This document shows, one piece after another, positions 28,840 to 53,842 of a stretch of DNA of 64,000 nt; the stretch's first letter is position 1; every line of letters begins with the position of its first letter. Source of the stretch: Woeseiaceae bacterium (GTDB lineage: Bacteria > Pseudomonadota > Gammaproteobacteria > Steroidobacterales > Woeseiaceae); assembly GCA_028277185.1 (NCBI GenBank), contig JANQGQ010000011.1, positions 1-64,000 of the forward strand, read 5' to 3'. The notes beneath the pieces are model-generated. The model saw only the letters and a program-made list of their open reading frames with translations. It did not search any database and had not been told where the DNA came from. The position numbers were made by a program, and so were the translations under genes.

Positions 28840-29199
28840 ATGCTCGACGACGCAACCCGATACGAGCTGCTGACCGCTCTCGAGGAGAACCCGGAGCTTT
28901 CGCAGCGCGACCTGGCCCGCAGGGTCGGCATAAGCCTCGGCAAAACGAACTACTGCCTCAAGGCTCTGATCGGCCGCGGCTGGGTCAAGATCGACAACTT
29001 CCGCAACAGCAATAACAAGAGTGCCTACCTCTACAAACTGACACCGGCCGGAATCAACGAAAAAGTGCAAGTCACCAAGCGCTTCCTGGCCATCAAGGTT
29101 CAGGAACATGCGCAGCTCGGTGAAGAGATCGAGCGTCTGAGAAACGAGGTCGAATCCGGCCGGCAGACCGATGAACCCGCCGGCGCGAACTCTGACTGA
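28840..29199 (+). CDS. MarR-like EPS-associated transcriptional regulator
   Basis: This 119-residue winged-helix protein has the HTH at ~12-45 (ELSQRDLARRVGISLGKTNY), a wing (~52-70, with SAYLYKLTPAG) and a C-terminal helix for dimerisation. It fits the EPS-associated MarR-type regulator family found at the heads of exopolysaccharide loci. It lies between the minus-strand trio and the wbpB operon, next to an inverted repeat that may be its operator. Activator or repressor role is unknown. Confidence 0.82.
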   Translation: MLDDATRYELLTALEENPELSQRDLARRVGISLGKTNYCLKALIGRGWVKIDNFRNSNNKSAYLYKLTPAGINEKVQVTKRFLAIKVQEHAQLGEEIERLRNEVESGRQTDEPAGANSD

Positions 29200-29266: not shown

Positions 29267-30334
29267 ATGAGCCCTGTACACCCTTTCGATCCTATCGATG
29301 AGCGCAAGATTCGATTCGCTTTAGTTGGCTGCGGCCGTATCTCGAAAAACCACATCCAGGCGATAGACAAACACGAAGAAACCTGCGAACTCGTGGATGT
29401 ATGCGACATCGATTCGGAGGCGCTTGCCGCTACCGTCGGCAAGACGGGGGCGAACGGCCATCGCAGCCTTGGCGACTTGCTCGAAAAATCCAGCGCCGAC
29501 TGCGTCATCCTCGCGACGCCAAGCGGGTTGCACTCCGACCAGACCGTTCGGATCGCGCAGTCGGGTCGCCATGTAATGACCGAAAAGCCGATGGCGACAC
29601 GATGGAGCGATGGTCTTGCTATGGTCGAAGCTTGCGATGAGGCCGGTGTGAAGTTGTTCGTCGTCAAGCAGAACCGACAGAACGCGACCCTGCAATTGCT
29701 CAAGAAGGCCATCGACGGCGGGCGGTTCGGACGGATCTATTCTGTTGCGGTCAATGTTTTTTGGACCCGGCCTCAGGACTACTACGACAGCGCCGACTGG
29801 CGCGGTACCTGGGAGTTCGACGGCGGGGCCTTCATGAACCAGGCCAGCCACTACATCGATTTGCTCGACTGGCTCATTGGGCCCGTCGACAGTGTCATGG
29901 CATATACCGGGACTTTGGCGCGCAATATCCAGGTTGAGGACTCGGGCGTAGCCGCACTTCACTGGCGCAACGGTGCAATGGGCACACTCAACGTCACGAT
30001 GTTGACCTATCCGAAGAACTACGAAGGCAGCATCACAATTCTCGGCGAGAAGGGTACGGTCCGCATCGGTGGCGTTGCGGTAAACGAGATACAGCAATGG
30101 GAGTTCGCCGACGAGCGGGAAGGCGACGACTCGATTGCGGACGCCAGCTACGCAACCACCAGCGTATACGGCTTTGGGCACCCGCTCTACTACGACAACG
30201 TAATCAAGACTTTGCGCGGAGAGGAAAAAGCAAAAACAGACGGCCGCGAAGGCCTGAAGTCGCTCGAGTTACTGATCGCGCTTTATCTCTCTGCGCGCGA
30301 CGGCAAGCGCATTGCTCTGCCATTGGAGTATTGA
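29267..30334 (+). CDS. wbpB: Gfo/Idh/MocA dehydrogenase, WbpB/WlbA type
   Basis: This 355-residue NAD-dependent oxidoreductase has the Rossmann motif [13 protein letters not shown], the EKP motif with catalytic Lys in [10 protein letters not shown], and the active-site His in [12 protein letters not shown]. The start at 29267 is preferred over upstream ones because the family pattern begins there. WbpB/WlbA oxidises C3 of UDP-GlcNAcA, the step before WbpE. It is separated from wbpD by two bases. The assignment rests on motif match and neighbours. Confidence 0.88.
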
Positions 30335-30336
30335 GC

Positions 30337-30918
30337 ATGGACTACACGGTTCACGACAGCGCAATCGTCGATGATGGTGCAAAGATCGGGCACCGTACGC
30401 GGATCTGGCACTGGGTCCACGTTTGCGGCGGCGCCATCATAGGATCCGACTGCTCACTCGGACAGAACGTGTTTGTCGGCAACCGCGTCGTTATCGGCAA
30501 CAACTGCAAGGTTCAGAATAACGTCTCGGTCTATGACAACGTAACCCTTGAGGACGACGTGTTCTGCGGCCCGAGCATGGTATTCACAAATGTCTACAAC
30601 CCACGATCGGCGGTTCCACGTAAGGACGAATACCAGGATACGCTTATTCGTCAGGGTGCGACGCTCGGAGCGAACTGCACGATCGTGTGCGGAGTTACCG
30701 TTGGCGAGTATGCATTCGTTGCGGCCGGTGCAGTCGTCAACCGTGACGTCAGACCGTACGCGCTCGTAGCCGGCGTGCCAGCGAAACAGATCGGCTGGAT
30801 GAGCCGGCACGGGGAACAGCTCGACCTGCCTCTCGACGGCAACGGCACCGCGACGTGTAGCGAGACCGGCGCCCGCTATCGATTGACAGAAGGACACTGC
30901 GAATGCCTGGACAAATGA
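30337..30918 (+). CDS. wbpD: Left-handed beta-helix N-acetyltransferase, WbpD/WlbB type
   Basis: This 193-residue hexapeptide-repeat protein has repeats such as [20 protein letters not shown] and [19 protein letters not shown]. The end [18 protein letters not shown] is the WbpD/WlbB signature. It acetylates the 3-amino group of UDP-GlcNAc3NA with acetyl-CoA. Its stop overlaps by ATGA with the start of a decayed aminotransferase fragment. Confidence 0.92.
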
Positions 30919-31130
30919 TCCCGTTCGTCGATCCCGAAACGCCGCAGCGGTCGCTTCAAACGCAAATCCCCGAACGGATAAAGTCCGTGCCCGGGCACCG
31001 AAATGCACTCGCGACACCGTCAATACCCGTCAATACCCGCCGGATGATTCTCAAATACGATTCAGGCAAAATGCGCGTCTCGAAACGCGCTGTCCTGCTG
31101 GCCGACCGAGCATGCAAGACGAGACTCTGA
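30915..31130 (+). pseudogene. Decayed 5' remnant of a WbpE-type aminotransferase
   Basis: A frame starts at 30915, overlapping the wbpD stop by ATGA as in an intact operon. Its first ~30 codons read [20 protein letters not shown], then RIKSVPGHR. They align without gaps to the WbpE start at 35099 (IPFVDLSAQQKAIDAQLRAR, then IDGVLAHGR): IPFVD, later Q, Q, R-I, V and H match. After this the resemblance ends, and two tandem copies of GTCAATACCC (31019-31038) follow. The PLP core is absent. It overlaps the next gene's start. Confidence 0.6.
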
Positions 31131-31702
31131 AACTCAGATTCAAAGGTGACCGCCGCTACGTGCACGGCAGCGACGTTTTCAACGCCATAGATCGGGTCAT
31201 TCTCGGACACGATAGCAGTGCCTTCGTTGCACAGCTGGCGTTTCGCCGTTTCGCGCGACACGATTGCGAACTCAGATGGAAACAGCCACCGCCCGCGGAC
31301 TCGGTGTTTGCTCAAGGCCGTGTCAACGTCGCCGGCAACCTGCAACCGTTCTGGGTCGTCGAGACTACGGCCGAGGTGGGCGCTCGATACGAGTTTGACG
31401 AAGATGGGCTGCTGTCCGCCTCCGTCGTCAACGGCGACGCGATCGAATTGCCCGAGCCTACGCGCCATTCGACCATCGAAGAAGTGATCGCACTGACGAA
31501 ACGCCTGAACTACGCACTCACCCCGGACGTCGACGGCAAGTGGGTCTTCGGGGAATTGAAACTCAACAGATCGTTTCCAGACGACTATCGCGTCATCCGT
31601 ATCGTCCGGGTCAACGAAATGGGTGGCCGATTCAGCGTGAACCGGATAAGCATCGATGGCGACGCGATTGGCGACATCCGCTTCATAGTAGGAAAGCCAT
31701 GA
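31112..31702 (+). CDS. Protein of unknown function in the acyl module
   Basis: This 196-residue protein has no signal or membrane segment. It is rich in beta strands, with VWVVETTAEVG-like segments around 75-90 and a C-terminal hydrophobic-polar pattern. It could be a hot-dog dehydratase/thioesterase-like or 3-hydroxyacyl-handling protein, but I do not see a defining motif. Its stop overlaps the KAS III start (ATGA), so it is very likely coupled to the acyl module. Confidence 0.7.
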   Translation: MQDETLKLRFKGDRRYVHGSDVFNAIDRVILGHDSSAFVAQLAFRRFARHDCELRWKQPPPADSVFAQGRVNVAGNLQPFWVVETTAEVGARYEFDEDGLLSASVVNGDAIELPEPTRHSTIEEVIALTKRLNYALTPDVDGKWVFGELKLNRSFPDDYRVIRIVRVNEMGGRFSVNRISIDGDAIGDIRFIVGKP

Positions 31703-32625
31703 TCGGCATTAAATCCATAGCAACGTTCGTGCCGGATGGCGCGATCGACAATATCGCTCAGGGTGAGCGCTTCGGCGAATCAGCGGACTTCATCCGCAAC
31801 AAGATAGGCGCGCGCCGGCTTGCGCGTAAAGGAGACGACCAGGACACTTCCGATCTCGTTCGAGCCGCAGTAGTCCGGCTGACCGAGCAGGAAGGCCTGG
31901 CAGCCGAAGATATCGACGCACTGATCGTCGTGACGCAGAATCCGGACGAATCGGGCCTGCCTCACACGGCTGCCGTCGCTCACGCCAAGCTGGGCCTCGG
32001 GCAAGATGTGGCGGCATTCGACGTCTCGCTCGGATGTTCCGGTTATGTATACGGCTTGAGTATCCTCAAAGGGCTGATGGACGAGACGGGCCTCCGAAAC
32101 GGCGTGCTGGTCACGGCCGACCCGTACTCCAAGGTCATCGATCCCGGTGACCGCGTGACGTCACTGCTGTTCGGCGACGCGGCCAGTGCCACCTGGCTCT
32201 GCGAGGACGCTGTATGGGACATCGGCAAGCCACTGCTCGCCACCGACGGCACCGGCGGCGACCACCTGATGGTCGCAAACGGTTTGCTGAAGATGAACGG
32301 CAGGCAGGTCTTCAACTTCGCCGCGCTACGCGTACCGCCGCAGATCCAGGCCGCGCTGGAACGGGAAGGCCTCGAGCCGACCGATGTGGACCTGTATTGC
32401 ATCCACCAGGGAAGTGCCGCGATCGTCGATGCCATAGCGCGCAGGTTTCCCGTCGTCAAAGACCGCTTCGTCCTCGACATGGATGGCACCGGAAACACGG
32501 TCTCCTCAACAGTCCCGCTCCTGCTGGCGAGCAGGCTGAACGATCCCGGGTTGCAGAGAATACTCATCAGCGGATTCGGCGTAGGGCTGTCCTGGGCGAC
32601 ATCGATCATTAGCAAAAGGACTTAG
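31699..32625 (+). CDS. 3-oxoacyl-ACP synthase III-like (KAS III) enzyme
   Basis: This 308-residue thiolase-fold protein condenses an acyl group with malonyl-ACP or transfers an acyl group. The catalytic triad is Cys113 in SLGCSGYVYG, His236 in IHQGS and Asn266 in GTGNTVSS. Length is close to FabH. The adjacent ACP and GNAT suggest a dedicated acyl chain for the glycan rather than bulk fatty-acid synthesis. It overlaps the gene upstream by four bases. Confidence 0.9.
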   Translation: MIGIKSIATFVPDGAIDNIAQGERFGESADFIRNKIGARRLARKGDDQDTSDLVRAAVVRLTEQEGLAAEDIDALIVVTQNPDESGLPHTAAVAHAKLGLGQDVAAFDVSLGCSGYVYGLSILKGLMDETGLRNGVLVTADPYSKVIDPGDRVTSLLFGDAASATWLCEDAVWDIGKPLLATDGTGGDHLMVANGLLKMNGRQVFNFAALRVPPQIQAALEREGLEPTDVDLYCIHQGSAAIVDAIARRFPVVKDRFVLDMDGTGNTVSSTVPLLLASRLNDPGLQRILISGFGVGLSWATSIISKRT

Positions 32626-32629
32626 GGAA

Positions 32630-32866
32630 ATGCTTTCCAAAGCTCAACTTGAAGAACTCATTCTCGGCGCGGGCCTCGTCGTTGAGCTCGAGTCACCGAT
32701 CCCGACCGACCGGGAGTTCTCCGACCTCGGCCTCGACAGTCTGGACGTCTACAATATCTTCGTCGAAGTCGAGGTTCAGACGTCGATCGAGATTCCGGAC
32801 AGCGAAATCGCGAATCTCAACACGATCGACAACCTGCACGCATACCTCGCCGCACAGGACTCGTGA
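32630..32866 (+). CDS. Acyl carrier protein
   Basis: This 78-residue ACP has the phosphopantetheine site Ser37 in LGLDSLDVYN, followed by the acidic helix II typical of ACPs. It starts four bases after the KAS III stop and overlaps the following GNAT by GTGA, so the three are coupled. It probably serves the local KAS III, not general fatty-acid synthesis, since no other fab genes are here. Confidence 0.93.
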   Translation: MLSKAQLEELILGAGLVVELESPIPTDREFSDLGLDSLDVYNIFVEVEVQTSIEIPDSEIANLNTIDNLHAYLAAQDS

Positions 32867-33957
32867 CTGCCGGGTATGCCTGGCGGCCGTATCGCGACGG
32901 CGACGCACGCGCGATCAACGACCTCTATACAAAGATCACGGGTACAACCCGATCCGAAAGTGAATTCGAGTGGCAGTGGCTGTCGGCTCCCGGCGGCAAC
33001 GGTGGGATCTGGCTGATCGAAACAGCCGGTACCGATGCCCCGAAACTCGTCGGCCACCACGGCGTCATGCCGGTCCGCTTCTCAAACGGCGAATCCGACC
33101 TCCTCTTCGGTAAGACGGAGAACACCATGGTTTTGCCGGATCATAGAAACCGGCTCCTGTATCCGCGCTTCGAACGACGATTCGCCAACGCCTACGAACC
33201 CCGGTTCGATGCGCTGTTTTCGACGTTCGGCGACGCCTCGGCGATTCGACTGCGCAAGGCTATGGGCTACGATTTCTCGTCGACGTGGGTGCAGCTTCAG
33301 ATCCCAACCAGCCGGCGCGCGGACTACGGGTTGCTGTTGGCCGTGCTGCTTCGGCGGCTTGGCCTTGCCGCAGGCCGGCGTCGGGATGCGTCTGCCGTCG
33401 ATCACGCTGTCCGGCGGCGGACAAACCCGCTGCCGCTGCGCAGCCTCGACGACGATGCGGCGCCCCGGGATGCGTTTTTCGACCGGTTCTGGGCCGAGCA
33501 TCGTCGGAATTTCCGGCTGACGCCAAGGCGTGACAAAGATGATTTGAACTGGCGCTTCTGGACAAACCCGTACGTATCCTATGTAACGCTCGTCAGCGAT
33601 GCGCTGAGTAACGAACAAGGCTACGCGATCGTCAGAGTGAATGGAGAGTCCGCAGTAGTCGAAGACATCGTCCCCGGTCCGGCGACCGCCGGGTCGTTCG
33701 CGCGCCTGCTGGATTCCGTTCTGTCGTGGTTGAGCGCCAACAGCGTGAACTGGGCCAACGTCTCGACGACCAGCGATTCTTGTACGAATGACGACATCGC
33801 ATCGGGGCTACGGCAACGCCAATCGCTCGCGAGGCGACTTCGCAACCGCACGCCGGCCGCCCGCTACATGCCGCGCAAGCTTACAGCTTCAGGAAAAGAC
33901 AAGAACCTGGACTGCCACGACTGGTATGTGACGCCGATCGTGTTCGAAGGCCGATAG
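32863..33957 (+). CDS. GNAT-family acyltransferase
   Basis: This 364-residue protein starts at a GTG overlapping the ACP stop. The N-terminal half matches a GNAT fold: an opening WRPYRDGDARAINDLY, a central strand pair around LVGHHGVMPVRF and a later LRKAMGYDF. The C-terminal half is less clear and may form a second GNAT-like lobe. It could take an acyl group from the ACP for transfer to an amino sugar. Position suggests this; the sequence does not prove it. Confidence 0.78.
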   Translation: MTAGYAWRPYRDGDARAINDLYTKITGTTRSESEFEWQWLSAPGGNGGIWLIETAGTDAPKLVGHHGVMPVRFSNGESDLLFGKTENTMVLPDHRNRLLYPRFERRFANAYEPRFDALFSTFGDASAIRLRKAMGYDFSSTWVQLQIPTSRRADYGLLLAVLLRRLGLAAGRRRDASAVDHAVRRRTNPLPLRSLDDDAAPRDAFFDRFWAEHRRNFRLTPRRDKDDLNWRFWTNPYVSYVTLVSDALSNEQGYAIVRVNGESAVVEDIVPGPATAGSFARLLDSVLSWLSANSVNWANVSTTSDSCTNDDIASGLRQRQSLARRLRNRTPAARYMPRKLTASGKDKNLDCHDWYVTPIVFEGR

Positions 33958-33985: not shown

Positions 33986-34642
33986 CTATCGTGAACCGGG
34001 ATTGCGCACCTCGAGTGCATAGAAGCGGATATAGTCGCAGGTCAACTGCCGCGCAACGCCGAGTCCGGCGTCTTCGAACAGCGCTTCGACGCTCGCCACC
34101 GTATGTTCGCCAAAGTCCATTTCCCAGTGATGCGCCTCCGTCGTGATCGCCTTTTTCAGTCTGCGCCACTCGAGGTTGATGCGTGGAATTCTCGGAATCT
34201 TCAGATCGAACTTGAAAACGACGTTCTCGTTGCGGGGCAGCGAGATGAACGCATACTTGCGCACGAAGTGCGGGATCTTCCGAATGATCTTCTCAAACTC
34301 GGCATACGGAATGTGCTCGAGAATCTCGAACGCCATCAGGTGGTCGTAGCTGCGCTCGAAATCGTACGTGACGACGTTGGCAACGATGTCAGGCTTCTTC
34401 TCGTCGTCGATGTCGATTGTTGTGACGTCGAGGCCTTTGGATCGGCAGTAATTTGCTGCGAACCCCGAGCCTATACCCATCTCGAGCAGGCCGTCCTTGC
34501 CCGGGACGACCAGTCCCTCCATGAGTTTCTGCTGGTACCAGTAGAACTCCCAGTGGCGTCGGGCCTCCAGTTTCCGGGTCCACGCCGCGTCGTACTTGTA
34601 TTCGACGCCGTCGACGACGTCCACGCGATACTTTTGGGTCAT
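33986..34642 (-). CDS. Class I SAM-dependent methyltransferase
   Basis: This 218-residue protein has motif I LLEMGIGSGFAANYC, the ribose-binding Asp in VTTIDIDDEKK and motif IV in MAFEILEHIPY. It is convergent with the GNAT (28-base gap) and divergent from the wbpE operon. It may O-methylate a sugar in the same glycan. Confidence 0.85.
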   Translation of the reverse strand: MTQKYRVDVVDGVEYKYDAAWTRKLEARRHWEFYWYQQKLMEGLVVPGKDGLLEMGIGSGFAANYCRSKGLDVTTIDIDDEKKPDIVANVVTYDFERSYDHLMAFEILEHIPYAEFEKIIRKIPHFVRKYAFISLPRNENVVFKFDLKIPRIPRINLEWRRLKKAITTEAHHWEMDFGEHTVASVEALFEDAGLGVARQLTCDYIRFYALEVRNPGSR

Positions 34643-35098
34643 GGCGATGTCAGCTCAAAGCGTTGGGGTGGGCGTGGGCGGAGGCGTGTCACGACGACGC
34701 TTCCCGCAGCCGGGCCAGGCTGCGGAAGCCTAGCGGAGGAAATGCCCACAAGCAATGATCCAGTCTCGCGGAGGCGGTCACCGACCTTGCGTCGCGGTTG
34801 CTTGCCCCGCGTCGGAGATGCCGCTATCCTCCGCGTTCACAAGTTGAACGCTGCCATTTTATGTCAAATAACGCCCCCCTGGACAGAGGCGCCGGGGCGA
34901 TCCGACATCTTGACGGCAGCCTTCGCTACCGCCTGCTGTGGCTGCCCGAGCGGCATCAAAGCGACGCATGAGCCCTCCCCCAATCGCCGAACCGGTCACC
35001 GGCCGCAAGCTTCGATCTGCGCTTGCCGGCCCGTATCTTTTGGCGCGCGACGGTCTCCGTGTCGCGCTACCCCTGGAACAATGACAAGGACAATGCAC
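34643..35098. other. 456-base divergent intergenic region before wbpE
   Basis: No gene is supported. The candidate operator (34834-34850) lies here, and the 5' leader of the wbpE operon must also start here. Beyond that I see nothing I can name. Confidence 0.55.
34834..34850. promoter_or_regulatory. Second copy of the candidate operator CGTTCA-N5-TGAACG
   Basis: CGTTCA (34834-34839), CAAGT, TGAACG (34845-34850) is the same 6-5-6 repeat as at 28769-28785; here the flanks extend it by one G:C pair. It lies ~250 bases upstream of wbpE, the first gene of the long operon. Confidence 0.6.
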
Positions 35099-36205
35099 AT
35101 GCACCGAGATCCGATTCCCTTCGTCGATCTGAGCGCCCAGCAAAAGGCGATCGACGCGCAGCTTCGCGCACGTATCGACGGCGTACTGGCGCACGGACGC
35201 TACATCATGGGACCTGAAGTCGCGGAACTGGAAACGCGACTCGCGGACTATGCCGGCGTTCCGCACTGCATTTCGGTCGCGAGCGGTACCGAAGCTCTGC
35301 TCATTAGCCTGATGGCACTGAATCTCGAACCGGGCGACGAAGTCATCACCACGCCGTTTACGTTCATTGCCACGGTCGAAGTCATCGTCCTCCTGGGTCT
35401 GACGCCGGTTTTCGTCGACGTCGAGCCCGATACCTGCAATATCGACGCATCGCAGCTCGAGGCGAAAATTTCTGCCCGAACGAGGGCCGTCATTCCCGTC
35501 AGCCTCTACGGCCAATGCGCGGATATGGATGAGATCAACGAAATTGCCGCAAGGCATGGCATTGCGGTCATAGAGGATGCCGCGCAGAGTTTCGGCGCCA
35601 CCTACAAAGGCCGCAGGAGCTGCGCACTCTCCAGGCTGGCGTGCACGAGTTTCTTTCCGAGCAAACCACTCGGCTGCTACGGCGATGGCGGTGCGATATT
35701 CACTGACGACGACGACCTGGCCCAGGCTTCCCGCGAAATCCGCGTGCACGGGCAGAGCGCTCGCTACGTGCACACGCGAATCGGTGTCGGCGGGCGAATG
35801 GACACGTTGCAATGTGCCGTTGTGCTCGCGAAGCTTGATCGTTTCGACTGGGAAATCGAGCAACGCAAGACGGTGGGCTCACGGTACCGGCAGGCGCTCG
35901 ACGAGATAGGGATTGCGAGCGTCACGGTGCGACCGGACCGGGATTCGGTGTATGCACAATACACGATCATGGTTGACGACCGCGATGCGCTGCAGCAACG
36001 CCTCACGGAGGCTGGCGTACCGACGGCAGTTCACTACCCGACACCGCTGAACGAGCAACCCGCGTACAAGCAATTCGGCGAGGCCGGCGAGACTCCGCAG
36101 GCCAGTTCCTTGTCACGCCGGGTGATCAGTTTGCCGATGCACGCCTACCTCGACGCCGATACGCAGGCCGACATCGTCACACGATTTGGAGAAGTCATCG
36201 CGTGA
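35099..36205 (+). CDS. wbpE: UDP-3-keto-GlcNAcA aminotransferase, WbpE/WlbC type
   Basis: This 368-residue PLP enzyme adds an amino group at C3 of the 3-keto sugar. Hallmarks shared with WbpE are PVSLYGQCADMDEIN, Asp160 in IEDAAQSFGATYKGRRSC, and Lys189 in TSFFPSKPLGCYGDGGA. The C-terminus has VPTAVHYPTPLNEQPAY. I choose the ATG at 35099 because AAGGA lies eight bases upstream; in-frame ATGs at 35081 and 35093 are possible. It heads a coupled run of genes to 48484; its stop overlaps wzx by four bases. Confidence 0.93.
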   Translation: MHRDPIPFVDLSAQQKAIDAQLRARIDGVLAHGRYIMGPEVAELETRLADYAGVPHCISVASGTEALLISLMALNLEPGDEVITTPFTFIATVEVIVLLGLTPVFVDVEPDTCNIDASQLEAKISARTRAVIPVSLYGQCADMDEINEIAARHGIAVIEDAAQSFGATYKGRRSCALSRLACTSFFPSKPLGCYGDGGAIFTDDDDLAQASREIRVHGQSARYVHTRIGVGGRMDTLQCAVVLAKLDRFDWEIEQRKTVGSRYRQALDEIGIASVTVRPDRDSVYAQYTIMVDDRDALQQRLTEAGVPTAVHYPTPLNEQPAYKQFGEAGETPQASSLSRRVISLPMHAYLDADTQADIVTRFGEVIA

Positions 36206-37683
36206 CGTCGACCGGGTCGACAGCGAGGAAACCGGAACGACGCCAATCGAGCTTTCGCGGCGACGTCTTCCGCCTGGCGACGGGTACGGGACTGGCGCAG
36301 CTCATCGGGGTCGTTTCGGCGCCGATAGTTACCCGGCTGTTTGCGCCGGAAGCTTACGGCGTCGCCGCGCTGTTTGCGTCGTTGACTCTGATACTGGGCA
36401 TCGTCGCTTGCTTGCGTTACGAACTGTCTATCGTGCTCCCTGAGGACGACAGCGACGCCGCTAACCTGCTGTGGCTGAGCCTGCGAACGGCGATGATCGT
36501 TGCCGGCGTTACGGGGCTTGGCGTCTGGCTCGTCGGATCGAACGTCGTAGCGTGGCTGAACGCACCGGAAATCGGGTCGCTGCTGTGGCTCCTTCCCTTC
36601 GCTGTGCTCGTGCACGGCGCATTCTCCGCACTCAAGTACTGGAATACCCGCACCCGCCACTTCACACGCCAGTCCGTCGCCGAGATCACGGGCCGTGCTT
36701 CCGGTACTGTCGGCGTCATTTCGGCAGGGGCCGCTGGGTTTACGACGGGTTCAGTGATGATCGTCGGGGCCATCGCCGGCAATCTGCTCGCAGCCCTCGT
36801 TCTGGCGGGACAGATCATCCGTGATAACGGACGGTTCTTGCTCGAGAGTTACGATCGACGCAAGATAGCCGCGGGCGCCCGCCAGCATCGGCGGTTTCCG
36901 ATATTCGGCACGTGGGCGGCGCTCCTCAATACCGTGAGCTGGCAGCTACCGATTCTGCTTTTCGGCGTATTCTTCTCGCCCGCGATAGCCGGCTTCTACG
37001 CGCTTGGTTTTCGCATCCTGCAAATGCCCATGAGCCTGATCGGCGGTGCCATCGGCCGGGTCTTCCATCAGCGTGCCGCCGAAGCGAATCTCCGCGGCGA
37101 GCTCGCGCCGCTCGTGCAGAACCTGTTAAAGATGCTCGCTATCGCCGGCCTCGCACCCATGATTGCGCTCGCCATCGCGGGCGAAGACCTGTTTGCGGTC
37201 GTGTTCGGCGGGAACTGGAGCGAGGCAGGCGTGTATGCGCAAATACTCAGCCCATGGGCGTTCGTGTGGTTCATTTCGTCGCCCCTGAGTACCCTCTTCG
37301 GTGTTCTGTCAAAGCAAGCGCAGGGGCTTGTCGTGCAGATCGCGATATTCGCCTCGCGACTCGTTTCGATCGGCGTAGGCACCTGGTATGGTGACGTACG
37401 GCTTGCTCTGGCGCTATTTTCGATTACAGGCATCGTCGTCTACGGCGGCCTGATAATCCACATCGTCCGCCTTTCGGGCGTAAGAGCGCTATCAGTCCTT
37501 GACTACGGAATCCTGAAAGCTCTGTTGCTCGGCATCGGACTTGCTCTCACCCTTGTCCTTATCGATTCGCAGGCAGGCGGCGGCATCCCGCTCATTGTTG
37601 CCGCGGGCGTCCTGGTCGGCACCTACTTCGCCTTGGTCTGGCGGGATTTGCTTGCGTGCGGGCAATTCGACGGGACCTCATGA
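36202..37683 (+). CDS. wzx: Wzx-type polysaccharide flippase
   Basis: This 493-residue membrane protein of the Polysacc_synt/MOP family has about 12-14 predicted membrane segments, opening with GDVFRLATGTGLAQLIGVVS. It moves lipid-linked repeat units across the inner membrane. It starts at a GTG overlapping the wbpE stop. It is unlike the two shorter flippases at 56806 and 60786. Confidence 0.9.
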   Translation: MTSTGSTARKPERRQSSFRGDVFRLATGTGLAQLIGVVSAPIVTRLFAPEAYGVAALFASLTLILGIVACLRYELSIVLPEDDSDAANLLWLSLRTAMIVAGVTGLGVWLVGSNVVAWLNAPEIGSLLWLLPFAVLVHGAFSALKYWNTRTRHFTRQSVAEITGRASGTVGVISAGAAGFTTGSVMIVGAIAGNLLAALVLAGQIIRDNGRFLLESYDRRKIAAGARQHRRFPIFGTWAALLNTVSWQLPILLFGVFFSPAIAGFYALGFRILQMPMSLIGGAIGRVFHQRAAEANLRGELAPLVQNLLKMLAIAGLAPMIALAIAGEDLFAVVFGGNWSEAGVYAQILSPWAFVWFISSPLSTLFGVLSKQAQGLVVQIAIFASRLVSIGVGTWYGDVRLALALFSITGIVVYGGLIIHIVRLSGVRALSVLDYGILKALLLGIGLALTLVLIDSQAGGGIPLIVAAGVLVGTYFALVWRDLLACGQFDGTS

Positions 37684-39068
37684 GCACGTCTGCATTCCGC
37701 TTCGAGGTCCCGCGCGGACACCGTGCCGAACTCGCCTGGATCTCGGACGTCGTATTCCGGGACCGCTTGGGGATCGAGGTGTCGCTCGAGGAAGTCGAGC
37801 GCCCGGATTTCCGACTCGTCAATGCAGACAAACACCTTACGCTGGCCAACGAGTACTTCGGGCAACGAGCCGACGGCAGCGAGCCGCCGATCCCCGCACA
37901 TGTCGACACGTCGTGGAAACCGCCGATGCCGGAACTCCGCAACCGACTGGTGTCGGACTCGGTTCCGGTACTGTTCGGCAACGGCGGCTTCCAACTGCAC
38001 TCAGAAAACGGCGGTCGGCTCGACCTCGACGTCATCGGTTCGGCGTTTTTTATGCTCTCGCGTACAGAAGAAACCTTGCCGGGCGACCGCGACGCCCACG
38101 AGCGATTCCCGTCGCATGCGTCGCTGGCCGGCAATCGCGGCTTTCTGGCGCGGCCAATCGTCGACGAGTACATCGAGATACTCTGGGCAGCAATTGCGCG
38201 AATCTGGCCCACTCTGAAGCGCCGCCAGGCCAGGTTCCGCCAGTCTCTGAGCCACGACATCGATTCACCGAGCTACTACGCGTTTATGCCCTGGGCGACG
38301 TCGCTGCGACGAGCGGCGGGCGACTGCGTGAAGCGTCGGCAGCCGGCAAGAGCGGCCAGCGAGCTGCGGCTGCGATTCCGGAGCCGTCGCGAGTTGCAGG
38401 CAGGCGATCCGTACAATACGTTTGACTGGATCATGGATCAGTCGGAGCGCCTCGGCCAACGCAGCGTCTTTTACGTCGTGTGCGGCCGCGGTCACGAACG
38501 CTTCGATCCTGCCTACGACGTTGGCCACCCGGCTATCAGGGCCCTGTTGCGGCATATCTCACGTAGGGGGCATTCGATCGGCTTACACGGCAGCTATTTG
38601 GCATTCGATTCCGAATCCCGTCTCAAAGCAGAGGCCGCGCGGCTCGCAGCCGTATGCGCGGAGGAAGGCATCGACGTCGGCCCGCTGCGATGTCGTATGC
38701 ACTATCTGCGCTGGCGGACGCCCGCATCGATGCACGCACTCGTCGCGGCCGGCATTCGCGCCGACGCGACGCTGTCGTTCGCAGATTCGGCCGGGTTCCG
38801 ATGTGGAACGTGCAAGGGCTATCAGGCATTTGACCCGGTCACCGCTACTGCGCTCGACTTGCGAATCGAACCGTTGATTGCAATGGAATCCAGCGTCATC
38901 GACCAGCGATACATGGGCATGGGTATCACCAATGCCGCTGCAGAAACACTCGTATCGCTAAAAGACGCCTGTCGCAGTGTCGACGGAGAATTTTCGCTCC
39001 TCTGGCACAACACGCAACTCGTCGACGACTCACAACGCTCGCTGTACAAGGCAGTGATCAATGGGTGA
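37680..39068 (+). CDS. Polysaccharide deacetylase-like protein with an N-terminal DUF7033-type domain
   Basis: This 462-residue protein has an N-terminal region (~1-185) of the type that precedes deacetylase domains in EPS loci, then an NodB-like segment: QSLSHDIDSPSYY with the His-Asp pair, GHSIGLHGSY in the middle and FSLLWHNTQL near the end. No signal peptide is seen, so it probably acts in the cytoplasm on a lipid-linked intermediate, or its export is not obvious. It overlaps wzx by ATGA. Confidence 0.82.
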   Translation: MSTSAFRFEVPRGHRAELAWISDVVFRDRLGIEVSLEEVERPDFRLVNADKHLTLANEYFGQRADGSEPPIPAHVDTSWKPPMPELRNRLVSDSVPVLFGNGGFQLHSENGGRLDLDVIGSAFFMLSRTEETLPGDRDAHERFPSHASLAGNRGFLARPIVDEYIEILWAAIARIWPTLKRRQARFRQSLSHDIDSPSYYAFMPWATSLRRAAGDCVKRRQPARAASELRLRFRSRRELQAGDPYNTFDWIMDQSERLGQRSVFYVVCGRGHERFDPAYDVGHPAIRALLRHISRRGHSIGLHGSYLAFDSESRLKAEAARLAAVCAEEGIDVGPLRCRMHYLRWRTPASMHALVAAGIRADATLSFADSAGFRCGTCKGYQAFDPVTATALDLRIEPLIAMESSVIDQRYMGMGITNAAAETLVSLKDACRSVDGEFSLLWHNTQLVDDSQRSLYKAVING

Positions 39069-41556: not shown

Positions 41557-42873
41557 ATGAGCACACTGCTCAGGAAACTGGACGAGTCCATGTATGTGCG
41601 GCGGCCGGTCGTCGTACCTATAGGCTCGATCGCACCTGTATTCTTTGTCATCGGCATCGGGCTGATCGTCGTAGAAGCGATGTTCTTCGAGACCGCGGCG
41701 AGTGCTGCTCACTCGCCGTTTTCAACGCGGCGATTCATCGGCTATCACCTGTTTCTGAGCGAAATCTGGTTCATCTTCATTGGCAACTTGTTGCTGTTCC
41801 TGTCGATCGGCAACAGGAGCTTTCGAATTCGAAAGAGCATCTTCACAGATGTGCGCGCGGTGTTGCTGACACTGGGCGTCTACACGGTATGGTTCGTTTA
41901 CGGGGCGCTCGCGGGAAACAGCTGGGCTCTGCAGGAATTTCGGGAAATGGCATTCGCTGCCCTGTCCCTGCCGCCAGTGCTCTACTTCGGTTCGCAACTC
42001 AAGTCGTACAAAGTCGTCGAAAGATTCGTGATACCGGCTACGTTGCTCCTGTTGCTCGTGGCGCTGTTAGGGGCACACAATGCGTCTCTGCTCGCCAGCA
42101 CGTTCCTTGTTGCATATTTCACATTGAAGCTGCTCTACGGCAGTAACTGGGCGATTGTCGGACTAGCCCTCGTATCGCTGCCTTTCCTTTTCAAGTTTGC
42201 GAAGCCGATGATCGTGCTATTCGGGTTTACGGTCGGGTTGACGTTTATTCTGGCTGGATACTTCAATCCCCGGTCCCTGAACTGGATACTGAGTCGGTTC
42301 AAACTCAGAGTTGCAGCAATCGGCGTTGCGTTGCTGCTCGCGATGATCGCGGCGATAGCCGCGATCAACTTCATTACCGACGGGCTGATCGAGTCGATAT
42401 TTCGATACTTCTTTCTCAAGGAACGGATTTCCACGTCGGGAACGATCTACGGCGACGTTAGCGGCGGTCGTTTCGCAATATGGAGTGCTGCGATCGAAGC
42501 ATGGTCGCAACGCCCCCTGCTCGGGCACGGACTGGGAGCCGAGGTCGAAGCGTACTCCACGGGTTGGGCGACGAAAGCCCAGTTCCACAATTACTTAGTG
42601 CAAGCGCTGCACAATACCGGGATCGTCGGCTTCACCTTGATTGTCGGCGGCTGGTTTCTCTGGCTACGCAAAAGCCTCGGGAAGATCAAGCGCTGCAAGT
42701 CCGACCGCGACCGCACCCTGCTGGGCAGTATGCTCATATTCGTACTTGGCGTTCTCTTTTTCGGCCTGTACGGGCATTCCTTCACCTACCCGCCGAGCAC
42801 GCTGCTCTTCTGGTTGTTCGTCGGATTGCTCAGCGTAGCGCACCCATCCAGATTGCCGGGCGAAAGAACATGA
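41557..42873 (+). CDS. wzy: Wzy-type O-antigen/EPS polymerase
   Basis: This 438-residue protein has about 11-12 membrane segments and a large periplasmic loop between ~290 and ~350, with GRFAIWSAAIEAWSQRPLLG, a signature-like stretch of the Wzy/O-antigen ligase family. The RW/H-rich HNYLVQALHNTGIVG follows. It sits between two glycosyltransferases' genes and the oxidoreductase fusion, as expected for Wzy. I chose the ATG over a TTG 18 bases upstream. Confidence 0.87.
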   Translation: MSTLLRKLDESMYVRRPVVVPIGSIAPVFFVIGIGLIVVEAMFFETAASAAHSPFSTRRFIGYHLFLSEIWFIFIGNLLLFLSIGNRSFRIRKSIFTDVRAVLLTLGVYTVWFVYGALAGNSWALQEFREMAFAALSLPPVLYFGSQLKSYKVVERFVIPATLLLLLVALLGAHNASLLASTFLVAYFTLKLLYGSNWAIVGLALVSLPFLFKFAKPMIVLFGFTVGLTFILAGYFNPRSLNWILSRFKLRVAAIGVALLLAMIAAIAAINFITDGLIESIFRYFFLKERISTSGTIYGDVSGGRFAIWSAAIEAWSQRPLLGHGLGAEVEAYSTGWATKAQFHNYLVQALHNTGIVGFTLIVGGWFLWLRKSLGKIKRCKSDRDRTLLGSMLIFVLGVLFFGLYGHSFTYPPSTLLFWLFVGLLSVAHPSRLPGERT

Positions 42874-45005
42874 AGCAGGTTTTGGTTTCCCAGGGCGAAG
42901 CCGTTGTCAGGGAGGTGCCGGCGCCTACGGTCGGCCAGGGCGAGGTGCTCGTCAAGGTGTCGGCATCCTGCCTCTCCGTGGGAACGGAGATGAGCGGCGT
43001 AAGAGCAAGCGGCGTTCCTCTATGGCGCCGTGCTCTCTACCGACCCGAGCAGGTCGCCAAGGCGGCCCGTATGGCGTTGGACAAGGGCGTCCGCCGCACT
43101 TGGGAGTTCGTCGAGCAAAAACGCAGCGAGGCGCGGCAGACGGGATACTCGGCGGCTGGTGTCGTCGTGGAAACCGGCTCCGACGTAAGCGGCCTTGCAG
43201 TCGGCGACCGCGTAGCCTGCGCCGGCGGCGGATACGCCGTGCATGCCGAATACATCCGTGTACCCCGTAATCTGTGCGTACCCGTGCCCGACGGCGTCGG
43301 GTTCGACGCGGCATCCACGGTAACGCTGGGTGCCATCGCACTACAGGGCGTACGCCGCGCATCACCGACGCTCGGAGAGACTTTCGTCGTTGCCGGCCTC
43401 GGTATCCTTGGCCAAATGACGGTTCAGCTGCTACGTGCGAATGGCTGCCGTGTCATAGGCGTCGACCCCGCGCCGGAACGCATCGACCTGGCGCGGGAAT
43501 TCGGGATGGAACTGGGTATCGACCCGTCGGTGGAAACCGAACTCGAGCACGTCGCGCGGCTGACAGACGGCCTTGGAGCCGATGGCGTGATCATCACCGC
43601 AGCGACGATGTCCGATGCTGTGGTTTCGCAGGCATTCCAGGTGTGTCGCAAGAAGGGCCGCGTCGTACTCGTAGGCGATGTCGGACTAACTCTGAACCGC
43701 AGAGACTTCTACGAAAAAGAAATCGATTTCCTGATTTCGACGTCTTACGGGCCTGGCCGCTACGACTACCGATACGAAGAGCTGGGTTACGACTACCCGC
43801 CCGCGTACGTTCGCTGGACCGAAAACCGTAATATGGCGGAATACCTGCGACAGATCGAGGACGGTCGAGTCGACGTGGGATCGATGATCACCGCGCGCCA
43901 CCCTGTCGATGATGCACCAGCCGCCTACGCGTCATTGAGCACTGACGGTCAGAAGCCGTTGATGGTGCTACTCACGTACCCGGAGCACGAATCCGCGCCT
44001 GTTCGAAGCATTCGGGTTGCAAGCAAGTCGACGCCATCGCCGGGCACGATCCGGGTCGCCGTCGTGGGCGCGGGAGCATTCGCGCAAGCGAATCACTTGC
44101 CAAACCTCAAAAGTCTCGGCGACCGCTTCGAACTGCGTACGGTGGTGAGCAGGTCCGGCCCGACGGCAACTGCCGCAGCGAAACGCTTTGGCGCCGTCAC
44201 GGCGTCGACAGACTTCGACGAGATGCTCGAAGACCGGGATATCGATGCGATCATCGTCGCGACACGGCACAATTTACACGCAAGCATGGCTCTCGCCGCC
44301 TTGCAGGCCGGCAAGCACGTGCTCGTCGAAAAGCCGACAGCATTGACGAAGGAAGACCTGGAATCGCTCGACGAATATCTCACGAACTCGGACGAGACGC
44401 CGATGCTCATGACCGGCTACAACAGACGATTCTCCCCATACGGAGTCGGGTTAGGCAGCCTGCTCCGGGGGCGCAGCGGACCGTTCATTGTCAACTACAG
44501 GATGAACGCGGGGTTCATTCCCGCCGATCATTGGGTGCACGGTCCCGAAGGCGGCGGCCGGAATCTCGGTGAGGCCTGTCACATATATGACCTGTTTACG
44601 TTCCTGGCAAATACCGAAGTTGCAAGCGTCTCGGCAACGTCGATTGCACCCGCTTCGGAGCACTATCGACGAAACGACAACTTCATTGCGACCATCCGTT
44701 TTACAGACGGCTCGGTCGCGTCGTTGACCTACTCGGCAGCCGGAAGCACCGAATACGCGAAGGAGACTGCCGACCTGTATGTCGATGGCAAGACGGCGAT
44801 ACTCCACGACTATGAGCGGCTCGAGGTCTACGGCGGTGATGGCGATGTGAAGACAGCGATGCGCGACAAAGGGTTCAGGGACGAACTCGTCGCGTTCGCC
44901 GACTGCATCAATAACGGAAAGTGGCCTATCCCCTGGTGGCAGCAAAAACAGGTCGTCGAGATCGGCCTCGAAATCGAGAGACAACTCACGAATGCTCCGA
45001 AATGA
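42870..45005 (+). CDS. Bi-domain oxidoreductase: zinc-type alcohol dehydrogenase fused to Gfo/Idh/MocA
   Basis: This 711-residue protein fuses an MDR/alcohol-dehydrogenase part (~1-370) to a Gfo/Idh/MocA part (~390-711). The first has GLGILGQMTVQLL as NAD(P) motif and SVGTEMSG near the start; I do not see the usual zinc-ligand Cys cluster. The second has VAVVGAGAFAQANHLPNL and the EKP motif in VLVEKPTALTKED. Such fusions are found in EPS loci. The substrate is unknown. ATGA overlap with wzy. Confidence 0.88.
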   Translation: MKQVLVSQGEAVVREVPAPTVGQGEVLVKVSASCLSVGTEMSGVRASGVPLWRRALYRPEQVAKAARMALDKGVRRTWEFVEQKRSEARQTGYSAAGVVVETGSDVSGLAVGDRVACAGGGYAVHAEYIRVPRNLCVPVPDGVGFDAASTVTLGAIALQGVRRASPTLGETFVVAGLGILGQMTVQLLRANGCRVIGVDPAPERIDLAREFGMELGIDPSVETELEHVARLTDGLGADGVIITAATMSDAVVSQAFQVCRKKGRVVLVGDVGLTLNRRDFYEKEIDFLISTSYGPGRYDYRYEELGYDYPPAYVRWTENRNMAEYLRQIEDGRVDVGSMITARHPVDDAPAAYASLSTDGQKPLMVLLTYPEHESAPVRSIRVASKSTPSPGTIRVAVVGAGAFAQANHLPNLKSLGDRFELRTVVSRSGPTATAAAKRFGAVTASTDFDEMLEDRDIDAIIVATRHNLHASMALAALQAGKHVLVEKPTALTKEDLESLDEYLTNSDETPMLMTGYNRRFSPYGVGLGSLLRGRSGPFIVNYRMNAGFIPADHWVHGPEGGGRNLGEACHIYDLFTFLANTEVASVSATSIAPASEHYRRNDNFIATIRFTDGSVASLTYSAAGSTEYAKETADLYVDGKTAILHDYERLEVYGGDGDVKTAMRDKGFRDELVAFADCINNGKWPIPWWQQKQVVEIGLEIERQLTNAPK

Positions 45006-46212: not shown

Positions 46213-47411
46213 GTATGGTGCTGCTCACGGAGTTCCCTCCGGACATTCGTGTTGAGAAGGAGCACATGACGCTGAATGAACACCACGATGTGTTCCTGCT
46301 TTGCCCACGGCGGGGCAACCAGGCCGCGGCGGAGCAATGGAACGGCCTTGGCATTCGGCGTGTGTTCTCTCCGGGCCAGCGCTGGCGTGGTCAGCTGAGC
46401 CTGATGTCGAGGCAGGCCTCCGCCCTCTGGGAAGCCCAGATCGAGCGGTTCGCGACCGACATCGAAGCAGATGTACTGCACGTTCACGACCTGCCGTTAC
46501 TCGGACCGGCACTGCACGTGGCTACCAGGCTCAATCTGCCGGTGGTCGCGGACCTGCACGAGAACTACCCGGCACTGCTCGAGGTCTCGCGTGGACGCCC
46601 ATGGTACGAGCTGCCGTCTTTCGGCGCGCTCGCATCGCGATTACTGGTATCGATTTCACGTTGGCGCGACTATGAATCGCGTGTCGTACCGAAGGCAGAC
46701 CGTGTCATAGTGGTGATCGAGGAGGCAGCAGAGCGACTGGTTGGCATGGGCATATCCAAAGAGCGGATTGCCGTCGTAGGGAACTACGCGACGTTCGATA
46801 CAGAGTCGGACAGCGATCCTCCTTCTCCGCCGTCCGGAGAGCTCAATAGTCGATTGTCCGTCGTGTATGCAGGTGGTTTCGGTGAGACGCGCGATCTCGA
46901 GACGGTTCTCGACGCAGTTGCAATCCTGCCCGACGCGGTCCGTGCCGGAATGCACGTCCAACTCGTCGGCGGAATGGGCCGAGACCTCACGCACCTCGAA
47001 CGGCACGCGGCCAGGCTCGGCGTGGGCGACTACGTGACACTAACGCAATGGTTGCCTCGCAAGGAAGCCGAACTTCTCATGAGCAAAGCCGACGTTGGCT
47101 TGGTTCCGCATGTCAAATCAGCGCACACGGACGCGACAGTTCCACACAAGCTATTCCAGTACATGTGGCGCCGCTTACCGGTAGTCGTCTCGAACTGTGC
47201 GCCACTCGAGCGTATTGTCCGCGACGCCGGATGCGGATTCGTTTACGAATCCGGGAACGCACAGTCGCTGGCCGAGCGGCTCGGGGAAATGCACGCACTC
47301 GGTGACCGTCGCGCCTCAATGGGAGCTGCGGGCAGAGAGGCTGTATTGCAGACCTACAATTGGAGCAGCGCCGGCAAGGCGCTGCTCGATGTCTACAGAA
47401 GCATTGGATGA
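46203..47411 (+). CDS. GT4-type glycosyltransferase
   Basis: This 402-residue GT-B protein starts MRIGMVLLTEFPPDIRVEKE. The N-terminal half has VLHVHDLPLLGPAL and VVADLHENYPALL. The C-terminal half has LSVVYAGGFGETRDLET and KLFQYMWRRLPVVVSNCAPL. It overlaps its upstream neighbour by ten bases and wbpI by ATGA. Donor is unknown. Confidence 0.88.
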   Translation: MRIGMVLLTEFPPDIRVEKEHMTLNEHHDVFLLCPRRGNQAAAEQWNGLGIRRVFSPGQRWRGQLSLMSRQASALWEAQIERFATDIEADVLHVHDLPLLGPALHVATRLNLPVVADLHENYPALLEVSRGRPWYELPSFGALASRLLVSISRWRDYESRVVPKADRVIVVIEEAAERLVGMGISKERIAVVGNYATFDTESDSDPPSPPSGELNSRLSVVYAGGFGETRDLETVLDAVAILPDAVRAGMHVQLVGGMGRDLTHLERHAARLGVGDYVTLTQWLPRKEAELLMSKADVGLVPHVKSAHTDATVPHKLFQYMWRRLPVVVSNCAPLERIVRDAGCGFVYESGNAQSLAERLGEMHALGDRRASMGAAGREAVLQTYNWSSAGKALLDVYRSIG

Positions 47412-48484
47412 AGATTACGACAATAATCGGCGCCAGGCCGCAGTTCATTAAGGCCGCTGCCGTATCGCGCGCACTTGGGAAACACCCGGGCATCTATGAA
47501 ACTATCGTCCACACCGGACAGCACTACGACAGGAACATGTCAGAAGTGTTTTTTTCCGAGTTGGCGATACCGGAGCCGCACATAAACCTGGGTGTAAGCG
47601 GCGGCTCGCACGGAAAGATGACCGGCACAATGTTGGCCGCGATCGAGGAGGTTCTGACCGGGGATCCGCCGGACTTCCTTCTGATCTACGGCGATACCAA
47701 TTCGACCCTCGCCGGGGCGCTCGCCGCCGCCAAGATTCACGTCCCGGTAGCTCATGTCGAAGCCGGTCTGCGCTCATTCAACCGTCGCATGCCGGAAGAA
47801 GTCAATCGCGTCGTCGCCGACCACGTAGCCGATCTGCTGCTCACCCCGACGGACACGGCCACCGCGAACCTCGCCGCCGAGGGTGTTGCCGCCGAAAAGG
47901 TCCATCAGGTTGGCGATGTGATGTTCGACGCAGCACTCTTCTACGGGTCCAAAGCCGATCGCGAAAGCAAGATCCTGGAGACGCTTGGGCTCGAGGACAA
48001 CAACTACGTGCTGGCGACCGTTCACCGTCAGGAAAACACGGATTCTCCGGACCGGCTTCAGGCGATCACGTCAGCCCTCGAAAGCATCGCGGAGGACATC
48101 GCCGTAGTCTTGCCTCTCCACCCCCGGACGAGAAAGCTGCTCGATGCCGGCGGCTACCTGGGACGCAAGAACGGCGTCCGTGTGATCGATCCCGTCGGAT
48201 ACCTGGACATGGTCATGTTGGAGCGCGGCGCAACCGTCATTGCGACTGACTCCGGCGGCGTACAGAAGGAGGCTTTTTTTCATAGCACGCCTTGCGTGAC
48301 GCTGCGTGACGAGACCGAGTGGGTTGAACTGGTAGAGATGGGATGGAATCGTCTCGCGCCGCCGGGTCAGGCTGACATCGCCGCATCGATCAGGTCTGCT
48401 CTCGGCAGTGTCGGCACGACGGGCGCACCTTACGGCGACGGGGAAGCCGCCGGGAAAATACTGGATGTGCTTGCGGCCGCCTGA
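47408..48484 (+). CDS. wbpI: UDP-HexNAc 2-epimerase, WbpI/WecB type
   Basis: This 358-residue non-hydrolysing 2-epimerase has TIIGARPQFIKAAAV, the signature GDTNSTLAGALAA, HVEAGLRSFNRRMPEEVNR and TDSGGVQKEAFF. With WbpB, WbpE and WbpD homologues in the same locus, it most likely epimerises UDP-GlcNAc3NAcA to UDP-ManNAc3NAcA (WbpI), but a WecB role (UDP-GlcNAc to UDP-ManNAc) cannot be excluded from sequence. It is the last gene of the long coupled operon. Confidence 0.92.
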   Translation: MKITTIIGARPQFIKAAAVSRALGKHPGIYETIVHTGQHYDRNMSEVFFSELAIPEPHINLGVSGGSHGKMTGTMLAAIEEVLTGDPPDFLLIYGDTNSTLAGALAAAKIHVPVAHVEAGLRSFNRRMPEEVNRVVADHVADLLLTPTDTATANLAAEGVAAEKVHQVGDVMFDAALFYGSKADRESKILETLGLEDNNYVLATVHRQENTDSPDRLQAITSALESIAEDIAVVLPLHPRTRKLLDAGGYLGRKNGVRVIDPVGYLDMVMLERGATVIATDSGGVQKEAFFHSTPCVTLRDETEWVELVEMGWNRLAPPGQADIAASIRSALGSVGTTGAPYGDGEAAGKILDVLAAA

Positions 48485-53020: not shown

Positions 53021-53842
53021 TCAGACGTCCCAGTAAGTCACGATGCTGATCTCGTTCGCATCCAGGATCTGCCTGAAACGCGGTGACGTCAGAAACTGTA
53101 GTTCCGCCCAGCGGTCGCAGCTGCCGGGCTTCTCTTCGACAGCCCGTTCGGTTCCCGGGTGGCAGCCCACTTCGACCGGACCGGGATCGGCCCCTACTTC
53201 CTGGACCGGCGACTCCGAATCGTTCTTCATTATTTTCGCGATATCGATAAACGCCTGCGGAGATCGAAGACCGGATGCATCGAAGAGTTTCCATGCCTGT
53301 CGCGCCATGAGCATACGGACCAGCCGGTAGGCGTTGACCTGGGGACTCTGCGTCCGGCGCCACAAGCCCTCTTCCCGCGTACTGCGCACACGATCGATAC
53401 CGTACTTCGGCAGAAGCCTCGCCACGACGCGTCGGATCACAGGCAACTGGTGCAGGTGCTTGTGGCTGTCGATGTGTGAGATCTTCACTCCTGCCGAGCC
53501 CACTCGATCCAGCTGCGCACGCACTTCACGCTCGACGTCCTCATCCCGCAATCTGCCGGTCACGGCTCTGAGAAACAGTTTTCGTTTCGGGAGAAACGAG
53601 CCATCTGCACTCGTCAACGTACTGGCGCCGGAAAGCGCCGTGCCCTCGCAGAAGTTCAGATGCACGCCGAAGCTCTGGTCGCCCTCCCAGTGACTGGCTA
53701 TTCCGAGAGCGTCGTCAGTGCCCGGCATATTAGCCATTATCGACGTACTCGATACCATGCCCGACTCCATGCCAAGCACGATACCGCGCGTTATCTCCTG
53801 AGTTTCCCCAAAGTCGTCTGCGTGAACAATCCACTTGCGCAT
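53021..53842 (-). CDS. ChbG/HpnK-type carbohydrate deacetylase
   Basis: This 273-residue protein of the YdjC family has the metal-site signature VHADDFGETQEIT (HADDFG) near the start and the KISHIDSHKHLHQLPVI block with the three His. It deacetylates amino sugars. It leads a four-gene minus-strand unit; one base separates it from the GT4 gene. Family members occur in chitooligosaccharide, hopanoid and glycan pathways; the local substrate is probably a lipid-linked amino sugar. Confidence 0.88.
   Translation of the reverse strand: MRKWIVHADDFGETQEITRGIVLGMESGMVSSTSIMANMPGTDDALGIASHWEGDQSFGVHLNFCEGTALSGASTLTSADGSFLPKRKLFLRAVTGRLRDEDVEREVRAQLDRVGSAGVKISHIDSHKHLHQLPVIRRVVARLLPKYGIDRVRSTREEGLWRRTQSPQVNAYRLVRMLMARQAWKLFDASGLRSPQAFIDIAKIMKNDSESPVQEVGADPGPVEVGCHPGTERAVEEKPGSCDRWAELQFLTSPRFRQILDANEISIVTYWDV

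Follow-up and report, generated by a model that had tools for sequence, protein, structure and literature searches.

The N-acyl groups carried by bacterial surface sugars influence antigenicity as well as phage and host recognition. Gene sets in which a ketoacyl-ACP synthase III (KASIII), an acyl carrier protein (ACP) and a transferase serve N-acylated aminosugars are already known in kind. The vio island of Pseudomonas syringae consists of vioA, vioB, vioS, vioR, acp, vioM and vioT, with a counterpart in P. aeruginosa PAK (orfA-N), and its proposed product is dTDP-N-(3-hydroxy-1-oxobutyl)-2-O-methylviosamine, with mass spectrometry (MS) of mutants (PMC3927599). In Flavobacterium psychrophilum, wfpC-G are predicted to build and attach the 3,5-dihydroxyhexanoyl group carried by Qui2NAc4NR, whose structure was determined by nuclear magnetic resonance (NMR) (PMC6519341). 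In these two precedents the glycans were analyzed by MS or NMR, and the roles of KASIII and ACP were inferred from sequence. In Porphyromonas gingivalis and Tannerella forsythia, a diacetamidouronate is made by WbpA, WbpB, WbpE and WbpD, VimE is proposed to remove its C-2 acetyl group, and VimA, a match to the FemAB model TIGR03019, is proposed to add serine or glycine (PMC7468200). Statements on the papers cited here, and comparisons with them, refer to excerpts of those papers. The locus described below lies in 64,000 nt from a Woeseiaceae bacterium (GCA_028277185.1, contig JANQGQ010000011.1, positions 1-64,000, forward strand; contig C29 in this analysis), referred to as the window. It contains linked genes for a protein without a named family (X), a KASIII, an ACP and a GNAT-like N-acyltransferase, which probably make their own short fatty-acid-like group and attach it to an unusual surface-coat sugar.

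The module resembles the vio and PAK sets in that KASIII, a dedicated ACP and an N-acyltransferase adjoin aminosugar genes, and the wfp set in its 3-ketoacyl-ACP synthase, ACP and acyltransferase. An earlier note on this DNA had considered KASIII and ACP unusual in a glycan locus, a view that the vio, orfA-N and wfp sets do not support. The vio and PAK sets differ in having a 3-oxoacyl-ACP reductase (vioR, orfD), a gene list (as excerpted) without X and dTDP-viosamine as the sugar, and the vio transferase is VioB, annotated as an acetyltransferase, vs. the GNAT of the window. For wfp, the excerpt names two synthases and a reductase and does not mention X, the sugar is UDP-Qui2NAc4N and the transferase is a PglD homologue. 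No counterpart of the dedicated reductase of these systems was found here: none of the genome's 40 match rows for short-chain dehydrogenases/reductases (SDR) fell on contig C29. With the Wbp/Vim pathway the window shares the sugar enzymes, a VimE-like step and a re-acylating transferase; the differences are that VimA adds serine or glycine and matches TIGR03019, a model the GNAT does not match, and that KASIII, ACP and X are not mentioned in the excerpt on that pathway. Three things are new here: X as a family with its predicted fold, the link of the module to Wbp and VimE-like enzymes, and a core that stays constant while transferase and deacylase are exchanged. Among the papers listed in the literature searches none describing X-KASIII-ACP with Wbp/VimE-like genes was found, which does not prove absence.

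The simplest reading is that an acetyl group is stripped from the sugar and replaced with one made by KASIII and ACP, and this is given a probability of about 0.6; the genes, their motifs and associations and the predicted fold of X are what the analysis shows, and from them we infer the reactions and their order. A WbpA-type dehydrogenase encoded elsewhere in the genome and the window enzymes in the WbpB, WbpE and WbpD roles would make UDP-2,3-diacetamido-2,3-dideoxyglucuronate, from which the VimE-like enzyme would remove one acetyl, probably at C-2, to free the amine. KASIII would join an acyl primer to malonyl carried by the dedicated ACP to give a short 3-oxoacyl-ACP, X would act on or guard the ACP-bound chain, and the GNAT would transfer the completed acyl group to the amine freed before. 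As the neighborhood of the module yielded no ketoreductase, formation of a 3-hydroxyacyl product would depend on a housekeeping FabG; otherwise the acyl group would stay 3-oxo or be altered by X. X may perform a non-reductive step where other systems have a reductase, or FabG may be borrowed. A search of the window and the other X loci with a home-made SDR model was negative as well, a result of only moderate weight since 2 of 10 left-out SDRs were missed (8/10 recovered).

The window KASIII scored above the cut-offs in the Pfam scan (PF08541, 70.8 bits; PF08545, 62.1 bits), and LGCSG, HQGS and GN[T/L]xSS were retained in all nine module KASIIIs checked by motif, the same motifs being seen separately in that of locus L012, outside the nine. 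Domains and motifs together bear out the intact Cys-His-Asn triad claimed in the earlier note. Against the housekeeping FabH model (TIGR00747) this KASIII reached 168.2 bits (cut-off 292.1), and a better FabH match was present elsewhere in the genome (contig C17). The window ACP was above cut-off for PF00550 (37.7 bits) with the serine of its DSL motif present (LDSLD), and reached 37.6 bits against the housekeeping ACP model TIGR00517 (cut-off 70.45). A stronger ACP was encoded on contig C20, where it neighbors FabG-like and FabF-like genes, lying between an SDR match and a FabF-like reading frame (FabF named by eye). Because a separate FabH and ACP exist, the window pair is regarded as extra to lipid synthesis. 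The module had been proposed as dedicated, and these separate housekeeping proteins and the recurrence of its parts together in amino-sugar loci, which is what N-acyl group formation would predict, support that proposal; the contrary case raised with it, in which the ACP would work in general lipid synthesis, is unlikely given that a separate ACP exists. Leu or Ile precedes a conserved proline in the KASIIIs of all 10 loci with X, and the genome's own FabH has Phe there. If this position is, as we assume, the primer gate at FabH residue 87, primer choice may differ.

X had no match to Pfam, NCBIfam or PDB sequences, in agreement with the earlier statement that no family could be named for it. 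Members of a seven-sequence X alignment had weak Pfam matches at most (best E 0.11, one member each), and two matches of the X profile to PDB sequences at E 0.39 were taken as chance. Structure prediction had been proposed for this product, and a confident AlphaFold model was obtained (pLDDT 88.6, pTM 0.87, alignment depth 4 sequences), in which a long helix followed by four strands occurs twice, a predicted double hotdog. Foldseek of the model against PDB gave a best E of 4.1e-6 (probability 1.00), and the top 50 titles comprised polyketide dehydratase domains, larger synthases, pyran synthase, FatA and TesB-like thioesterases, product template domains and itaconyl-CoA hydratase, which presumably share the hotdog fold; a viral structure library gave nothing at E <=0.001. 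X is thus a predicted member of the hotdog superfamily, the fold class to which polyketide dehydratases and acyl-ACP thioesterases belong, and because TM-scores in the top 50 were 0.35-0.52 with rmsd of 11.2-15.2 A, it is assignable to that class and not to a given enzyme or reaction. Polyketide dehydratases, FatA/TesB and MadB-type proteins share this fold class; X differs in its length of 196 aa, its 8-15% identity to the top 50 structural matches and its lack of an invariant histidine and of a Pfam family. Invariant across nine homologues were R14, G19, E97, K130, P138, W144, G187 and F191. X as a ketoreductase was set aside given the confident double-hotdog model, a fold that to our knowledge has no nucleotide-binding fold.

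X was rare, being found in 3 of 60 relatives, 4 of 369 class genomes (profile search), 3 of 396 order genomes and 1 of 398 phylum genomes, where each count includes the genome of the window and the genome draws overlap. It was also found on one alphaproteobacterial plasmid with the X of locus L014 as query (a plasmid search with the window X protein gave no match), and not in phages or viral contigs. The window X protein alone gave no match against genome contigs, and the KASIII profile none against viral contigs. A match in genome G415 (E 4.1e-4, 90 residues of a 449-aa frame) was not counted, as the profile did not reproduce it. The 10 distinct loci were the window, L006, L007, L011, L012/L098, L013, L014 (from the isolate Marinomonas aquiplantarum CECT 7732), L092, L097 and L099. 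Queries with X retrieved six of them (the window X gave L006, L007, L011 and L012, the seven-member X profile L097 and the L014 X L099), so selection does not account for their KASIII and ACP; L013, L014 and L092 were reached via the KASIII profile, and KASIII is there by construction. In genome G362, X is split over two contigs (L012:6628-7005 and L098:7838-8100), probably by an assembly break; it was counted once with the pieces unjoined, and the alignments for conservation, Mantel test and structure did not include it.

KASIII was present in 10/10 X loci, as was ACP (eight by search, L007 by reading the open reading frame (ORF), L099 by annotation). All four window ORFs are taken as genes and not chance ORFs because of conserved relatives in other genomes. 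The X stop and KASIII start share ATGA (31699-31702, 4-nt overlap) and the ACP stop and GNAT start share GTGA (32863-32866, 4-nt overlap), and KASIII and ACP are separated by a 4-nt gap, so that an earlier description of four genes overlapping head to tail holds for two of three junctions and fails at KASIII-ACP. The 4-nt X-KASIII overlap recurred in eight of the 10 loci; it is longer in L012, and KASIII is on the opposite strand in L007. Over nine loci, X identities correlated with those of KASIII (Mantel rho 0.72, p 0.0015) and of ACP (rho 0.65, p 0.0035). The closest KASIIIs outside X loci were from Pseudomonas (56-60% identity, among the best 80 of 576 confirmed matches). Neither X (0/77) nor a match to the window ACP (0/77) was found in the fetched flanks of 77 such loci (L015-L091; four flanks short), so this kind of KASIII does not always occur with the module. 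A flaG-like gene (named by eye) was in the flank of 73 of the 77, and full gene content was read in three. On balance, X-KASIII-ACP is likely to be a portable acyl-making core, with the GNAT as the transferase that fits it to the sugar of the window.

The acyltransferase varies with the sugar while X-KASIII-ACP stays constant. Nine of the 10 loci fall in three sugar contexts, Wbp-type, dTDP-3-aminosugar and pseudaminic-type. The GNAT and VimE-like genes occurred together in the same five loci, those of the Wbp/Vim-like context (window, L006, L013, L014, L092), and in none of the other five (fetched flanks). WlbB-like and WbpE-like genes lie beside the module in L013 and L014, and on another contig of the L092 genome (72% and 59% identical, ~1.4 kb apart). 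The dTDP-3-aminosugar context comprised L011 and L099, with an FdtA-type protein (by eye in L011), a DegT aminotransferase and a hexapeptide acyltransferase. In the pseudaminic-type context (genes by eye), L012 encodes an AAC(3)-like and a DUF4910 protein and L097 a hexapeptide protein; L007 carried a methyltransferase besides an AAC(3)-like protein paired with DUF4910. Neither VimE-like nor DUF4910 proteins were found in the fetched flanks of the hexapeptide-enzyme loci (L011, L097, L099), which agrees with stripping and re-acylation, because the amine there would be fresh from the aminotransferase. The AAC(3)-like gene stands beside the DUF4910-type gene and adjoins the module at L007:10718-13049 and L012:8159-10273, a second transferase with a possible deacylase. 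DUF4910 as a deacylase is a possible role and our own extension; a structural study suggested transacylation, with deacylation only a possibility needing unusual residues (PMC4000134).

A broader reading is held tentatively, at somewhat less than even odds: X would found an undescribed double-hotdog family that shapes the ACP-bound chain for N-acylation of sugars, and X-KASIII-ACP would be a mobile acyl-swap cassette that fits into different sugar pathways with a matching transferase and deacylase. As part of the same tentative reading, VimE-like would pair with GNAT, DUF4910 with AAC(3)-like and no deacylase with the hexapeptide enzyme, a deacylase being expected where the amine already carries acetyl. 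If true, a cassette that makes its own acyl group and serves several sugars would illustrate the origin of acyl variety, DUF4910 would gain a testable role and glycan engineering a tool. The chemistry of X, as a family with a predicted fold, is directly testable in vitro.

Several results weigh against the strip-and-reacylate reading. Family matches of the GNAT are weak: its label is the weakest of the four (PF13527, E 0.024, 15 bits vs. cut-off 25), and of four orthologues scanned only that of L014 was above a cut-off (PF00583, 21.0 bits vs. 20.7), those of L092 and L006 being below it for PF13527 (E 3.8e-4 and 0.045) and that of L013 having no Pfam match. Structure prediction had been proposed for the GNAT as well; the model obtained was of poor quality (pLDDT 53.3). 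The VimE-like proteins of the other four GNAT loci scored 170-202 bits with NF053580 and, like that of the window, were far below the 440-bit cut-off; the name VimE-like was chosen for this reason, and the substrate may differ from that of VimE. Neither GNAT nor VimE-like proteins had a meaningful PDB sequence match. The X model was built on four sequences, with the low TM-scores and high rmsd given above. WbpA lies outside the window, and the oxidoreductases of L013 and L014 are distant from that of the window (E 3.6e-9 and 5.9e-10). Of L006 only the end of an aminotransferase is visible, where the contig stops, and its genome (84% complete) yielded no WlbB-like gene, so that this locus does not confirm the Wbp pathway.

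Two alternatives concern the role of X. X could be a dehydratase or hydratase acting after the housekeeping FabG, giving crotonyl, butyryl or (S)-3-hydroxybutyryl and not 3-oxo or (R)-3-hydroxy groups. Its best structural matches, polyketide dehydratase and pyran synthase domains, and the lack of SDR match rows on the contig favor this. Dehydratase domains use a catalytic His-Asp pair, and with no invariant histidine in nine homologues the canonical pair is not kept in X; the proposal is judged rather unlikely. The FatA- and TesB-like thioesterases among the matches, and an acidic residue at position 123 in the second long helix (E in 8/9, D in 1/9 homologues), would instead suit a role of X as thioesterase or as malonyl-ACP decarboxylase, in which X edits or primes the ACP and KASIII alone sets the acyl group. 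Hotdog proteins are described that decarboxylate malonyl-ACP (MadB) or methylmalonyl-ACP (LmnK, a double hotdog) (PMC8666670). Pfam scans of X gave no match to the MadB family (malonyl-ACP decarboxylase, PF09500). KASIII can use acyl-CoA primers and has no need of acetyl-ACP, which counts against a priming role, and this assignment also appears fairly improbable.

The destination of the acyl group can be questioned as well. A GNAT that works in the manner of VimA, adding an amino acid or plain acetyl while KASIII and ACP serve a different acceptor, would suit the VimE-like partner and the Wbp-type genes, which are also those of the Wbp/Vim pathway, and the AsnB-like proteins of L006 and L013, WbpS being AsnB-like too. 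The GNAT gene, however, follows and overlaps the ACP gene, and its product had no NCBIfam match to E 0.1, hence none to TIGR03019 (the VimA / PEP-CTERM FemAB model), which makes a VimA-like role quite unlikely. KASIII-type enzymes also make signals such as alkylquinolones, and enzymes of the Pseudomonas quinolone signal (PQS) were among the PDB matches of the window KASIII. A small molecule or lipid unattached to the glycan, made in a sugar locus by coincidence of position, is nonetheless very unlikely, given the vio and wfp precedents and the recurrence of the module with acyltransferase genes in Wbp-type, dTDP-3-aminosugar and pseudaminic-type loci.

Table 1. Genes of the acyl module and associated genes in the 64,000-nt window.
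Feature	Position	Strand	Properties
X	31112..31702	+	196 aa, no named family, predicted double-hotdog fold
KASIII	31699..32625	+	308 aa, Cys-His-Asn retained, start within X stop (ATGA)
ACP	32630..32866	+	78 aa, LDSLD attachment motif
GNAT-like N-acyltransferase	32863..33957	+	364 aa, perhaps two GNAT domains, GTG start within ACP stop
VimE-like deacetylase	37680..39068 (scanned as 37656-39068)	+	NF053580 200.3 bits, cut-off 440; PF23019 above cut-off
Gfo/Idh oxidoreductase, WbpB role	29267..30334	+	E 1.4e-175 to PDB 3q2i (which we take to be WlbA)
Hexapeptide N-acetyltransferase, WbpD role	30337..30918	+	E 3e-99 to PDB 3mqg (which we take to be WlbB)
WbpE-like aminotransferase	35081..36205	+	E 2.6e-129 to PDB 3nu7
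WbpI-like UDP-2,3-diacetamido-2,3-dideoxyglucuronic acid 2-epimerase	47408..48484	+	E 2.4e-139 to PDB 8sxv
MarR-family EPS-associated regulator	28840..29199	+	TIGR04176 152.5 bits, above cut-off

Judged by sequence matches, the Wbp pathway is represented by relatives of WbpB, WbpD, WbpE and WbpI in the window together with a WbpA-type dehydrogenase on contig C21 (603 bits vs. cut-off 592). The Wbp genes, the VimE-like deacetylase and the fold of X were not mentioned in the earlier note. An asparagine-synthase-like protein, comparable to WbpS of the Wbp/Vim pathway, is encoded near the module at L006:3331-5292 (TIGR03108 below cut-off), L013:10353-12323 and L007 (near 16669), with no match in the window. 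A methyltransferase gene (33986-34642, minus strand) faces the end of the module, and the gene adjacent to the GNAT differs in L006, L013, L014 and L092. Within this glycan cluster, 42480-45005 encodes a fusion of an alcohol-dehydrogenase-like part (by eye) with a Gfo/Idh-like part, the frame matching the window Gfo. Another stretch (53024-56032) encodes YdjC-like deacetylase, AMP-ligase-like and desaturase-like proteins (by eye).

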